64,000 nucleotides of DNA from Halonatronum saccharophilum DSM 13868. GTDB taxonomy: Bacteria > Bacillota > Halanaerobiia > Halobacteroidales > Halobacteroidaceae. The notes under the pieces are model-generated. The model did no database searches and was not told the DNA's origin. It was given only the letters and a program-made list of their open reading frames with translations. The stretch spans positions 614,141 through 678,140 of the forward strand of contig NZ_KI912094.1 of the NCBI RefSeq assembly GCF_000517025.1, read 5' to 3'. Positions 14,627-54,458 of this stretch are shown here, one piece after another. The translations under genes were made by a program, and so were the position numbers. Position 1 is the first letter of the stretch; each line of letters begins with the position of its first letter.

Positions 14627-14702
14627 TGGTGGCCAGACCCGGACTCGAACCGGGGACACGAGGATTTTCAATCCTCTGCTCTACCAACTGAGCTATCTCG
14701 CC
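14627..14702 (-). tRNA. tRNA-Phe (GAA)
   Basis: The cloverleaf is complete, with anticodon loop TTGAAAA between GAGGA/TCCTC stems, T arm CCCGG-TTCGAGT-CCGGG and encoded CCA. The acceptor 5' strand is GGCGAGA against 3' TCTGGCC, giving a G4-G69 mismatch; a standard tRNA-Phe would have GGCCAGA. This may be a real variant or a base error. It is the last of three tRNA genes on the minus strand. Confidence 0.93.
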
Positions 14703-14712
14703 TTGGTAAACC

Positions 14713-14802
14713 AGTTGATGATTGATAGTGGATAGTTAAAACCTTAAAGACTAAGTTCTTAAAAGCCTTTGACTTTAACTGTCAATTATCAATTTTCAAC
14801 TT
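14713..14802. repeat. Palindromic intergenic repeat, family A, copy 1
   Basis: The left arm AGTTGATGATTGATAGTGG and the right arm ACTGTCAATTATCAATTTTC pair imperfectly around a CTTTGACTTTAA-containing centre. It lies between tRNA-Phe and tRNA-Glu. Close copies are at 15011-15105, 47820-47918, 52569-52766 and 54255-54340. No coding capacity is seen. Confidence 0.75.
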
Positions 14803-14925
14803 TAAACTTATATATGGTACCCTTTCAAGGATTTAAAATTCAAAATCCTTTCATGGTCTAGTAACTATATGATTTCTTTGTAACATAATAATTTAATGTT
14901 ACTATTTAGCTCTAATGAGACTATA

Positions 14926-15001
14926 TGGTACCCCCAAGGGGATTCGAACCCCTGCCGCTGAGATGAAAACCCAGTATCCTAGGCCACTAGACGATGGGGG
15001 C
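14926..15001 (-). tRNA. tRNA-Glu (TTC)
   Basis: The anticodon loop TTTTCAT lies between CTGGG and CTCAG, giving anticodon TTC. The acceptor GCCCCCA pairs with TGGGGGT (first pair G-U), followed by discriminator A and encoded CCA. The D arm GTCTAGTGGCCTAGGAT is typical of tRNA-Glu. Confidence 0.95.
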
Positions 15002-15010
15002 CTAGTATTT

Positions 15011-15105
15011 AGTTGAAAGTTTACAATTGATAGTGGTATAGTTAAAGACCTTAAATTCTAAGGTTTTGACTTTAACTGTCAATTATTAATTATCAATTAT
15101 CAACT
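15011..15105. repeat. Palindromic intergenic repeat, family A, copy 2
   Basis: AGTTGAAAGTTTACAATTGA with TAGTGGTATAGTTAAAG on the left pairs with TTTAACTGTCAATTATTAAT and TATCAATTATCAACT on the right. The order of words matches copy 1 at 14713-14802, but the sequence has diverged. It lies between tRNA-Glu and tRNA-Lys. Confidence 0.75.
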
Positions 15106-15114
15106 GTTTTTAAA

Positions 15115-15190
15115 TGGTGAGCCATGGAGGATTCGAACCTCCGACACCCTGATTAAAAGTCAGGTGCTCTACCGACTGAGCTAATGGCCC
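15115..15190 (-). tRNA. tRNA-Lys (TTT)
   Basis: The anticodon loop CTTTTAA lies between CCTGA and TCAGG, giving anticodon TTT. The acceptor GGGCCAT pairs with ATGGCTC (one G-U pair), and CCA is encoded. It is the first of the three tRNA genes after the promoter at 15210-15238. Confidence 0.95.
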
Positions 15191-47773: not shown

Positions 47774-47819
47774 CCCTTCATCCCCTTACCTTTATATTTT
47801 AGAAATATTCTCTATTACT

Positions 47820-47918
47820 AATTGATAATTAAGAGTAACTTGGTAATTAAATTGAAAAGATTAAAACGCTTTTAGTCTTTAATCTTTTAACTATCAATTT
47901 TCAATTATCAACTATCAA
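47820..47918. repeat. Palindromic intergenic repeat, family A, copy 3
   Basis: AATTGATAATTAAGAGTAAC on the left and ACTATCAATTTTCAATTATC plus AACTATCAAC on the right pair imperfectly around an inner stem (GATTAAA with TTTAATC). It fills the purC-purF gap. Confidence 0.72.
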
Positions 47919-47919
47919 C

Positions 47920-48627
47920 TTAGTTAGTCAATCTTCTTAGTATCTCCTCATAGGCTTCCACTACACCTCCCATACCTCTACGGAATCTGTCCTTATCAAG
48001 CTTCTTTTTACTTTGACTATCCCAAAAGCGACAGTTATCAGGAGATATCTCATCTCCTAAATAAATCTTACCATCACTACCTCTACCAAACTCTAACTTA
48101 AAGTCAATTAAATCTATCCCTTTATCCTTTAAGTAATCTACTAATATATCATTAATCTTAAAGGTGATCTCTTTAATTTGGTCTAATTCTTCTTTTGTTG
48201 CTAACTCTTGAGAATATATATGATACTCATTAATCATTGGGTCTCCTAAGTCATCTACCTTATAATAAAACTCTAAAACTGGTTTAGACAGTTTAGTCCC
48301 TTCCTCTAAGCCTAAACGCTTAGCCAAGCTTCCAGCAGCAATATTTCTCATTACCACCTCTACTAGGATAATATCTAAGTTCTTAGTTAATACCTCTCTA
48401 TCATTTAAAACTTCTATCAAGTGGGTCTTAATCCCTTTATCTTCTAAGAGCTTAAAGAATATATTTGATATTTTATTATTCAAAACACCCTTACCAGATA
48501 TTTGGCTCTTCTTCTCACCATTAAAAGCCGTTGCATCATCCTTATACTCAACAATCACCTTATCTTCATCATCAGTAGAATAAATTCTCTTCGCCTTACC
48601 CTCATAAAGCAACTCCTGCTTCTGCAT
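47920..48627 (-). CDS. purC: SAICAR synthase (canonical PurC)
   Basis: PurC joins CAIR and aspartate with ATP to make SAICAR. The 235-residue protein has [47 protein letters not shown] and the full substrate motif [12 protein letters not shown]. It lies in the operon between purB and purF. GGGGG precedes the ATG. A second, divergent PurC-like gene is at 37.7 kb. Confidence 0.95.
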
Positions 48628-48730
48628 TTAAAATCCCCCATTAGCTTATTTCTGAAATCTACATTATATAAAAATAACCAAATTATTTTACTAGTAAAAT
48701 TGACATAAAATCAAGAGATTAAGAGCTTTT

Positions 48731-48890
48731 TTCACCACGAATGAACACGAATATACACTAATTAAAAAACTAAAAATTAATTGTTTTCAAGTACTTTTTT
48801 ATTGAAAAATATAAATAATTATATTAAAAATATTTTAGAATTTGATTTTTATTAGTGCTCATTCGTATCTATTCGTGGTTTCAACTAGTT
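48731..48890. repeat. Palindromic intergenic repeat, family B, copy 2
   Basis: CACCACGAATGAACACGAAT with TACACTAATTAAAA on the left is mirrored by TTATTAGTGCTCATTCGTAT and CTATTCGTGGTTTC on the right. It fills the purB-purC gap and is followed by a TTCTTGACC word seen near several other repeats. It is related to 3546-3816. Confidence 0.72.
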
Positions 48891-48966
48891 CTTGACCTTA
48901 ATCATAAAGGCTACGCTTTATCCTAATATAATCACTCTTTTTATAACTTTCTAATTCCTTGCACTA

Positions 48967-52568: not shown

Positions 52569-52766
52569 AGTTGAAAATTGAGAATTGATAATTGATAGTT
52601 AGAAGCCCAAAGTTCAAAAACTTTAACAAAAATCAAAATCTGATTAAAACTTTTTAATTTATTCTTTTATCAGATCTAATCACCATCTACCAATTTGACT
52701 TTGATCTTAATCTCTAAGTTAGTATTAGTTTTTTGACCTTAACTATCAATTATCAACTATCATCTA
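52569..52766. repeat. Family A palindrome with a nested family C palindrome
   Basis: Outer arms AGTTGAAAATTGAGAATTGA and AACTATCAATTATCAACTAT are of family A. Inside, AAATCTGATTAAAACTTT and TTATCAGATCTAATCACC (about 52628-52690) form a family C palindrome. One repeat therefore seems to have landed inside another. It fills the purD-purK gap. Confidence 0.72.
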
Positions 52767-54041
52767 TCAATTCCTATTAACGGCTTTCCCGCCTATGTCA
52801 TTACGGTAATGAGCTCCTTCAAAATCTATCTTCTCTACATTTTCATAGGCTTTATCGATTGCATCCTGATATCCATCACCTAAGGCTGTCACTGCCAAAA
52901 CTCTTCCTCCTGCTGTTACTAGCTTATCTCCTTTTAAAGCAGTTCCGGCTTGGAAAACAACAATATCTTCTTCCTTACTAGCTTCTGCAACTCCACTAAT
53001 TTCTTTGCCCTTCTCATAATTTATAGGATAGCCTCCAGAAGCCATAACTACACATAAAGCTGTCTTCTTAGACCATTGAATATTCACTTTTGCTAACCTT
53101 TCATCAATTACTGCTTCAAATATCTCTACTAGATCAGTTTCCAATAATGGAAGGACAACCTGAGTTTCAGGGTCTCCAAATCTCACATTATACTCTAAAA
53201 CTTTTATCTCATCACCATCAATCATTAATCCGCTATAAAGGATGCCCTTAAATTTGACTCCTTCTTCCTTTAGCGCCTTAATAGTAGGCTCTAAAACTTC
53301 CTTCTTGATTCTCTCCATCATCTTATCATCTACTACTGGTGCTGGTGCATAAGCTCCCATCCCCCCAGTATTTGGCCCTTTATCACCATCATAGGCTGCC
53401 TTGTGATCTTGAGATGGAATCATCGGTACTATAGTCTTACCATCAGTAAAGGCCAAAACTGTAGCCTCTTCACCTTTTAAAAACTCTTCTACAACAATTT
53501 GATTACCCGCTTGGCCAAACCTTTCATCAACCATTATCTCTTCTACTGCTTGGATAGCTTCTTCTACATCTTGAGCTACGATTACTCCTTTACCTGCTGC
53601 TAATCCTTCAGCCTTAACAACAATTGGAGCACCCTCTTTTTTTATATAATCTATAGCCTTCTTAGCATCACTAAAGCTTTCATACTTTGCTGTAGGAATA
53701 CCATACTTTTTCATTAAGTCTTTAGAGAATACTTTACTACCCTCTAACTTGGCTCCATCCTTTGTTGGCCCGAAGATTCTTAGCCCTTCTTTCTCAAAAG
53801 TATCAACTACCCCATCTACAAGAGGTGCCTCTGGGCCAACAACCGTTAAATCTACCTCTCTACCTTTAGCAAAAGAAATTAAACCTTCAATATCACTATC
53901 ACTTATTTCTATATTCTCTGCTAAATCTGCTGTTCCAGCATTTCCAGAAGCCACAAAAATCTCTTCTACCTTATCACTCTGTTTTAATTTCCAAACTAAT
54001 CCGTGTTCACGTCCTCCACTACCAATTACCAACACTCTCAT
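52767..54041 (-). CDS. purD: Phosphoribosylamine-glycine ligase
   Basis: PurD joins phosphoribosylamine and glycine using ATP, the second purine step. Motifs are VIGSGGREHGLVWKLKQS, GPEAPLVDGVVD, VVKAEGLAAGKGV and GGMGAYAPAP, with LEYNVRFGDPETQ near the metal site. 424 residues. It is the first gene of the nine-gene operon and starts 93 bp after the riboswitch terminator. AAGGGTG precedes the ATG. Confidence 0.95.
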   Translation of the reverse strand: MRVLVIGSGGREHGLVWKLKQSDKVEEIFVASGNAGTADLAENIEISDSDIEGLISFAKGREVDLTVVGPEAPLVDGVVDTFEKEGLRIFGPTKDGAKLEGSKVFSKDLMKKYGIPTAKYESFSDAKKAIDYIKKEGAPIVVKAEGLAAGKGVIVAQDVEEAIQAVEEIMVDERFGQAGNQIVVEEFLKGEEATVLAFTDGKTIVPMIPSQDHKAAYDGDKGPNTGGMGAYAPAPVVDDKMMERIKKEVLEPTIKALKEEGVKFKGILYSGLMIDGDEIKVLEYNVRFGDPETQVVLPLLETDLVEIFEAVIDERLAKVNIQWSKKTALCVVMASGGYPINYEKGKEISGVAEASKEEDIVVFQAGTALKGDKLVTAGGRVLAVTALGDGYQDAIDKAYENVEKIDFEGAHYRNDIGGKAVNRN

Positions 54042-54133: not shown

Positions 54134-54196
54134 AAATAAAAAATACCCAGGCAGAGAAATCCTACTTTACTAAGAGCAGAACCTCCCCGCCTGGGC
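54134..54196 (-). terminator. Riboswitch-controlled terminator of the purine operon
   Basis: On the minus strand GCCCAGGC (54189-54196) can pair with GCCTGGG (complement of 54146-54152), followed by TATTTTTTATT. The 5' arm is also the 3' end of the PRPP aptamer (AAAGCCCAGGCGGG), so ligand-stabilised aptamer folding would compete with this stem. Confidence 0.88.
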
Positions 54197-54368
54197 TTTT
54201 ATCCCTTCGGTGTAATATCTATTATCTGTATCGCTTGGACCAGCCAAACATACCAGTTGATAATTTATAATTGATAGTTGATAGTTAAAAGGATTAAAAC
54301 CTTTACTAGACTATCAACTATCAATTTTCAACTCTCAATTGATGATTGCGGAACCCTAGATACACTTC
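54182..54368 (-). promoter_or_regulatory. PRPP riboswitch aptamer (ykkC class), P2 arm expanded
   Basis: The ykkC core is clear on the minus strand: AAGTGTATCTAGGGTTCCGC, then CTGGTCCAAGCGATACAG, then TACACCGAAGGGATAAAAGC and CCAGGCGGGGAGG. These words match the PRPP subclass that occurs in tandem with guanine aptamers upstream of purine genes in Firmicutes. The short P2 hairpin normally found between TTCCGC and CTGGTCC is replaced by about 105 nt containing a family A palindrome. PRPP binding is expected to favour read-through into the operon. The subclass is assigned by sequence recall and context. Confidence 0.88.
54255..54340. repeat. Family A palindrome inside the PRPP aptamer
   Basis: AGTTGATAATTTATAATTGA with TAGTTGATAGTTAAAAGG pairs with CCTTTACTAGACTATCAACT and ATCAATTTTCAACTCTCAAT around a 6-nt loop (plus-strand reading). 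It is the same element found between tRNA genes at 14713-14802 and 15011-15105. Here it forms the P2 helix of the riboswitch. Confidence 0.8.
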
Positions 54369-54435
54369 CCTCATAGTCAGACAGTTACGGCTATCTGGTA
54401 GAAACTTATGGGCCAATTCCCACATTTATATGAGG
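54369..54435 (-). promoter_or_regulatory. Guanine riboswitch aptamer
   Basis: P1 is formed by CCTCATA and TATGAGG. Between them are TGGGAATTGGCCCA (P2), TAAGTTTCTACC (J2/3), CAGATAGCCGTAACTGTCTG (P3 with the CCGTAA loop) and GACTATG (J3/1). The C in GACTATG is the specificity base for guanine; adenine aptamers have T there. It directly abuts the PRPP aptamer. Guanine binding is expected to favour termination. Confidence 0.93.
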
Positions 54436-54458
54436 TCATATTCGATTATTATAGTACT

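Follow-up and report, generated by a model that had tools for sequence, protein, structure and literature searches.

Structured RNAs differ greatly in the length of their peripheral arms, and the origin of the extra sequence is usually unknown. The described system that is most relevant to the present leader is the tandem guanine-PRPP riboswitch (ykkC subtype 2b) reported by Sherlock et al. 2018 (PMC5912903). In the nomenclature of the crystal structure (PMC6031431), the P1-P1a-P1b-P2 stack ends in P1b, which caps the P1 hairpin, and the name P2 belongs to the small hairpin that follows. P3, P0 and P1a together make up the pocket, and the loop of P3 docks into P1a (PMC6031431). A pyrimidine at position 49 is the criterion for subtype 2 (PMC6031431), and the G96 marker separates PRPP from ppGpp aptamers. 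We analysed a 64,000-nt stretch of the genome of Halonatronum saccharophilum DSM 13868 (the window), in which the leader upstream of purD shares the layout of the published tandem (PMC5912903): a guanine aptamer that leads straight into a subtype 2b-like aptamer, a single terminator, and then purine genes. It differs in P1b, which measures about 16 nt in the published tandem of T. mathranii, as inferred from published residue numbers, whereas in the window it is 106 nt long and consists of a dispersed repeat. The leader and its surroundings comprise the following features:

54354-54453, minus strand: guanine (purine class) aptamer (RF00167, 77.6 bits against a gathering score of 37)
54186-54370, minus strand: PRPP-type ykkC aptamer, split by the P1b insert (RF00442)
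54243-54348, minus strand: 106-nt P1b arm, a copy of a dispersed heptamer palindrome, delimited by GGGUUCCG and UGGUCC and identified by own-genome matches
54254-54285, no strand assigned: one side of the palindrome (inverted repeat I6, 84% complementary)
54310-54341, no strand assigned: other side of the palindrome (inverted repeat I6)
54134-54195, minus strand: shared intrinsic terminator hairpin and U-tract (fold and sequence)
52767-54041, minus strand: purD, which heads the controlled pur operon (open reading frames; synteny in relatives)

Immediately downstream of the leader comes purD, which is followed by eight more pur genes in the order purD-K-E-B-C-F-M-N-H. A preliminary description of this DNA had proposed a guanine aptamer joined to a PRPP/ykkC aptamer with one terminator, and indeed both aptamers were placed by Rfam models. 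In the guanine aptamer, the J3/1 segment GACUAUG puts a C at the guanine-selecting position. The match to RF00442 reached 44.1 bits (E 1.1e-6, local search), which is below the gathering score of 63, and its alignment skips 90 nt inside the first hairpin. The cut-off of RF00442 was passed in only 4 of 61 genomes, most relatives scoring below it like the window genome, because the Rfam model was built for guanidine-I. The guanine aptamer stands immediately upstream of the ykkC-fold aptamer, as in the tandem class. In the RF00442 alignment, a pyrimidine (C) was found at position 49, together with AAGCG in place of the GAGAG of the guanidine consensus. When GCCCAGGCGGG is aligned to GCCcGGGAG, a G would fall on the subtype 2b marker G96, a position that follows from the alignment and not from exact numbering; this G is kept in relatives. 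By sequence tests, the window leader is classed as a member of the tandem guanine-PRPP riboswitches. The terminator hairpin (54195-54134) is strong and its 5′ side overlaps the 3′ end of the PRPP aptamer. The switch would work as the known gate, in which guanine favours the shared terminator and PRPP opposes it.

The long arm had been named P2 in the preliminary description, but is P1b in the published nomenclature (PMC6031431). In the purD leader of genome G003 (L173), the P2 hairpin of the PRPP aptamer is also enlarged, to about 40 nt, unlike in its relatives. The arm of the window leader folds as a single long hairpin. Rfam microRNA matches on the arm were rejected as chance matches to a long hairpin.

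The arm belongs to a repeat that is dispersed through the window genome. It matched its own genome at least 78 times at E≤0.01, in at least about 41 distinct places besides itself; these counts are lower bounds, since 40 of 132 candidates were scored. The best own-genome match among those scored was 77% identical over 87-92 nt (E 7.7e-14). The preliminary description had equated an arm of about 105 nt with a repeat found between tRNA and pur genes, which is borne out by the 106-nt length and by three copies in the window:

47816-47920, no strand assigned: repeat copy in the purF-purC spacer (inverted repeat and match G000:C5:661956-662060)
52569-52770, no strand assigned: repeat copy in the purK-purD spacer, with arms that flank a long centre (inverted repeat I8 and spacer comparison)
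15060-15106, no strand assigned: repeat copy between tRNA-Glu and tRNA-Lys (match G000:C5:629200-629246 and tRNA calls)

Copies between tRNA genes, filling the spacers of tRNA clusters, were found in 10 of the 23 inspected loci. Palindromes in tRNA spacers were seen at 14702-15190 of the window and at loci L085-L090, L092, L101, L104 and L110. A SAM riboswitch, 5S RNA and SRP RNA near repeat copies were set aside as Rfam RNAs that lie beside the copies and not around them. The arms and the copies are alike in having a heptamer period: the identity at lag 7 was 0.517 in the P1b arms against 0.304 after shuffling (z 12.6), and 0.542 in the genome copies. The centre motif AGTTAARDTCAAAA was counted 70 times in G006, 42 in G004, 28 in G007, 19 in G005, 18 in the window genome (G000), 13 in G001 and 11 in G003, whereas G002 had two copies and the other genomes of the taxonomic class 0-6, most of them near the control counts. 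The control count was 0 in G006 and 1 in G000.

The spacers of the pur operon hold further sequences of this kind. Orthologous spacers of sister species (L210-L216) contain palindromes of different heptamer alphabets, and turnover is therefore not confined to the riboswitch. The purM-purN spacer has AGTGTGAG-type palindromes in G005 and GTTAACAG-type palindromes in G007. The purB-purC spacer (48628-48966 of the window) carries another long imperfect palindrome, CCACGAATAGATACGAATGAGCACTAAT ... ATTAGTGTATATTCGTGTTCATTCGTGG, which is outside the heptamer family. In the purE-purB spacer of G001, G002, G003, G005 and G007 (L210, L211, L212, L214 and L216), an additional guanine riboswitch is present, single and equipped with a terminator of its own. 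This internal riboswitch is missing in both Natroniella genomes and in the window genome, where the spacer consists of 455 nt of repeat-like sequence.

We compared the leader with those of related genomes. The RF00442 covariance search of the family genomes missed most long-armed leaders (E 0.02-0.7 or no match), and the leaders were therefore located by a sequence pattern from the 3′ half of the aptamer, which found them in 45 of 59 genomes of the taxonomic class, including all eight of the family. The length of the P1b arm helps to account for the failure of the standard covariance model to detect such riboswitches genome-wide. The two halves of the conserved core of the PRPP-type aptamer are kept in all relatives and are nearly invariant around the variable arm. 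The long arm is no peculiarity of the window genome: P1b arms of 106-132 nt occupy exactly the same site in six of the eight family genomes (G000 and G003-G007). These belong to three genera: that of the window genome, genus g5 Natroniella (G004, Natroniella sulfidigena, and G006) and genus g4 (G003, G005 and G007). Short P1b arms, around cores that are otherwise alike, were found in G001, G002 and the sister family. That a spreading palindrome can sit inside a structured RNA as a simple hairpin extension, as had been proposed, agrees with the single-hairpin fold and with the same core in short-armed relatives.

Each of the six long arms belongs to the dispersed repeats of its own genome. When the six arms were compared with the eight family genomes, 15-80 matches were obtained in the six long-armed genomes, against 3 and 9 in G001 and G002. 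To control for chance similarity due to AT-richness, eight arms of 63-117 nt were taken from other families; they matched only themselves in their own genomes, with one exception, a 43-nt match in G013 (E 1.3e-4) that was aligned to another genome's arm. Across most of the taxonomic class P1b measures 11-36 nt, with 61-117 nt in several. Long arms (61-117 nt) of other families include those of L163 (G013), L167 (G031) and L148 (G016), which are single-copy where tested, and in genus g15 the arms are bimodal, being either long (several loci) or 14-19 nt. Since long single-copy arms exist outside the family, arm lengthening also happens without repeats. The long arms of the class thus have more than one origin, and an origin from repeats was observed in this family alone. 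The earlier suggestion that such repeats are a route to large riboswitch arms accordingly stands for this family, while elsewhere in the class the long arms are not repeats.

The sequence within the site proved to be far less stable than its surroundings. Between the two Natroniella genomes, the 112 nt of leader adjoining the arm are 96% identical, yet the G006 arm matched the congeneric G004 arm with only 31 bits. A copy elsewhere in its own genome, by contrast, was 83% identical to it over 116 nt (116 bits). Similarly, the window arm scored 71.6 bits against its own copies and at most 37.4 bits against the orthologous arms. Some G004 copies matched the window arm nearly as well as its own copies (61.7 bits), and repeat subfamilies are therefore partly shared between genomes. 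The basal pairs (CAC/GUG) are similar in some short-armed relatives, with no target-site duplication visible.

A second set of leaders provided a comparison within single genomes. In genus g4, a further guanine-PRPP leader precedes xpt-pbuX, and in G003 and G007 the P1b tip of this leader likewise contains the repeat. The 5′ cores group by gene, with identities of 88-98% within purD leaders and 85-94% within xpt leaders against 75-82% between the two. The arms of G003 do not follow this grouping: its purD arm is 92% identical to its xpt arm (score 163), whereas scores against the purD arms of G005 and G007 were 30 and 26, with shuffled pairs reaching 27. On the simplest reading, the arm would have been copied between the purD and xpt leaders within the G003 lineage; this putative gene conversion rests on one genome. 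In two leaders of the genus, the PRPP half lacks the conserved P1a core, while the repeat, the guanine aptamer and a terminator-like part are kept:

G005:C14:79044-79416 (L256 / L316): G005 leader before xpt without the P1a core
G007:C9:805163-805583 (L254): extra upstream copy in G007 without the P1a core

These leaders suggest either that the P1b tip is not always a harmless place or that their PRPP halves decayed for other reasons.

Together, the comparisons of arms and cores indicate that the repeat at the P1b site is replaced or copied between loci while the aptamer core stays fixed. We therefore consider it likely that the P1b tip of the tandem guanine-PRPP riboswitch is a persistent lodging site for the dispersed, 7-nt-periodic palindromes of this family, with its content being replaced or copied between loci. 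Turnover could proceed by recombination (ectopic gene conversion) between copies or by re-insertion, together with heptamer slippage. A bolder version of this reading is conceivable, although we lean against it. It holds that the aptamer arm evolves in concert with the repeats of the genome, being overwritten repeatedly by ectopic gene conversion from repeats and between paralogous riboswitches, so that it tracks the genome and not the gene and occasionally erodes the aptamer, as in the G005 xpt leader.

Conceivably, no mobile element is involved, and the arm and the other palindromes arise in place by heptamer slippage and template switching at an existing hairpin. This would fit the strong 7-nt period and the arm indels, which come in heptamer steps of 7 and 14 nt. 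It would also fit the different heptamer alphabets of orthologous spacers, and neither a target-site duplication nor a sharp repeat end was found. However, the similarity to dispersed copies spans the non-repetitive centre, both in G006 (83% over 116 nt) and between the G003 purD and xpt arms (92%), and the common centre motif is enriched in the repeat-bearing genomes of the family. We hence regard an origin purely in place as unlikely.

Less probable still is a single ancestral insertion in the family that was inherited strictly vertically, with the arms diverging by fast hairpin drift with compensatory changes. The site is indeed common to three genera, the repeat occurs in both purD and xpt leaders, and the arms of G005 and G007 are clearly orthologous (82%, 100 bits), differing by a 14-nt indel of two heptamers. 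Against this, the G004 and G006 arms, and the G003 arm and those of G005 and G007, resemble each other at or near background level, G006 and G003 each hold another copy that is far more similar to their arm, and convergence of an arm on the local repeats is not what drift alone produces. The preliminary description had reasoned that leaders of distant genera with the same long arm would mark it as ancestral. This holds for the site and the similar length, but not for the sequence, which differs and derives from the local repeat family in each case. In a tree of RpoB and RpoC, the family was supported (100), as was the grouping of the window genome with g4 (99), while the order of G001/G002 and Natroniella was weak (73); one gain followed by loss in the ancestor of G001 and G002, or two gains, both fit this tree. 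A tree of pur genes disagreed with the families, which it mixed, and was poorly rooted. Since the P1b site is occupied in three genera, its occupation is probably older than the genus of the window genome, and the present sequence younger.

It is similarly improbable that the long arm is functional and kept by selection, either for timing, by holding back the 3′ half of the PRPP aptamer, or as a site for a protein or RNase. In favour of selection, three genera carry a long arm at the site, as do both intact leaders of G003 and of G007, and the arm folds somewhat more stably than the other copies (-0.30 kcal/nt, the copies averaging -0.22 with an sd of 0.05, for segments that were trimmed differently). 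Neither the sequence nor the length of the arm (99-132 nt) is conserved, however, and it is missing in G001, G002 and the sister family, despite otherwise similar cores. Finally, an ordinary P1b tip of variable length with an accidental resemblance to AT-rich repeats is hardly credible: P1b does vary in length across the class and its long forms are single-copy where tested, but whole-length own-genome matches reach E 8e-14 in G000 and 2.5e-26 in G006, and unrelated long arms have none.

Returning to the P1b tip as a lodging site, the structure offers a possible reason for its tolerance. P1, P1a, P1b and P2 are stacked coaxially alongside P3, whose loop docks into P1a. An extension that folds on itself at the P1b end would hence point away from the PRPP pocket, and the tip may therefore accept a repeat. 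In ligand-free folds of the isolated aptamer, P1 was formed at only 8% in the window genome and at 10% in the short-armed G001, while the minimum-free-energy structure of the whole window leader contains P1. Ligand-free partition functions gave P1 closure of 1-99% among long-armed and 10-99% among short-armed leaders, and the long arms paired mainly with themselves. As the ranges of P1 closure are mixed in both arm classes, folding cannot decide the effect of the arm. We infer that the arm is near-neutral for switching and that regulation would be ordinary.

The leader thus differs from most structured RNAs with enlarged peripheral arms in that a source can be named. The donor family lies in the same genome, and replacement is visible between congeneric species and between the two leaders of G003. 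The P1b site accordingly offers a natural series of arm replacements for gauging how far the tip of an aptamer can change.

Among open-licence papers, we found neither a heptamer palindrome on point for this order nor a repeat insertion in the P1b of a ykkC RNA. In heterocystous cyanobacteria, a helix of RNase P RNA, also a structured RNA, harbours short tandem heptamer repeats. This parallel is a lead only, as it concerns a housekeeping ribozyme, whereas the window case is a ligand-gated leader. The small bacterial repeats of the MITE/REP type (reviewed in PMC10969869) are short, non-coding, palindromic, intergenic and multi-copy, as is the repeat in the window. Being dispersed, short and non-coding, with inverted repeats, the latter shows some of the traits of a MITE and resembles this kind of element, although it departs from it by its 7-nt periodic arms, fluid ends and genome-specific heptamers, and no target-site duplication was seen. 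The closest published case of a repeat combined with riboswitches that we found comes from the pneumococcal trp leader, where two T boxes are separated by a BOX element (PMC3049150). In both cases an intergenic repeat has entered a composite leader of which the riboswitches are apparently still functional, but the BOX element lies between riboswitches, whereas the repeat in the window lies inside the peripheral helix of a single aptamer.
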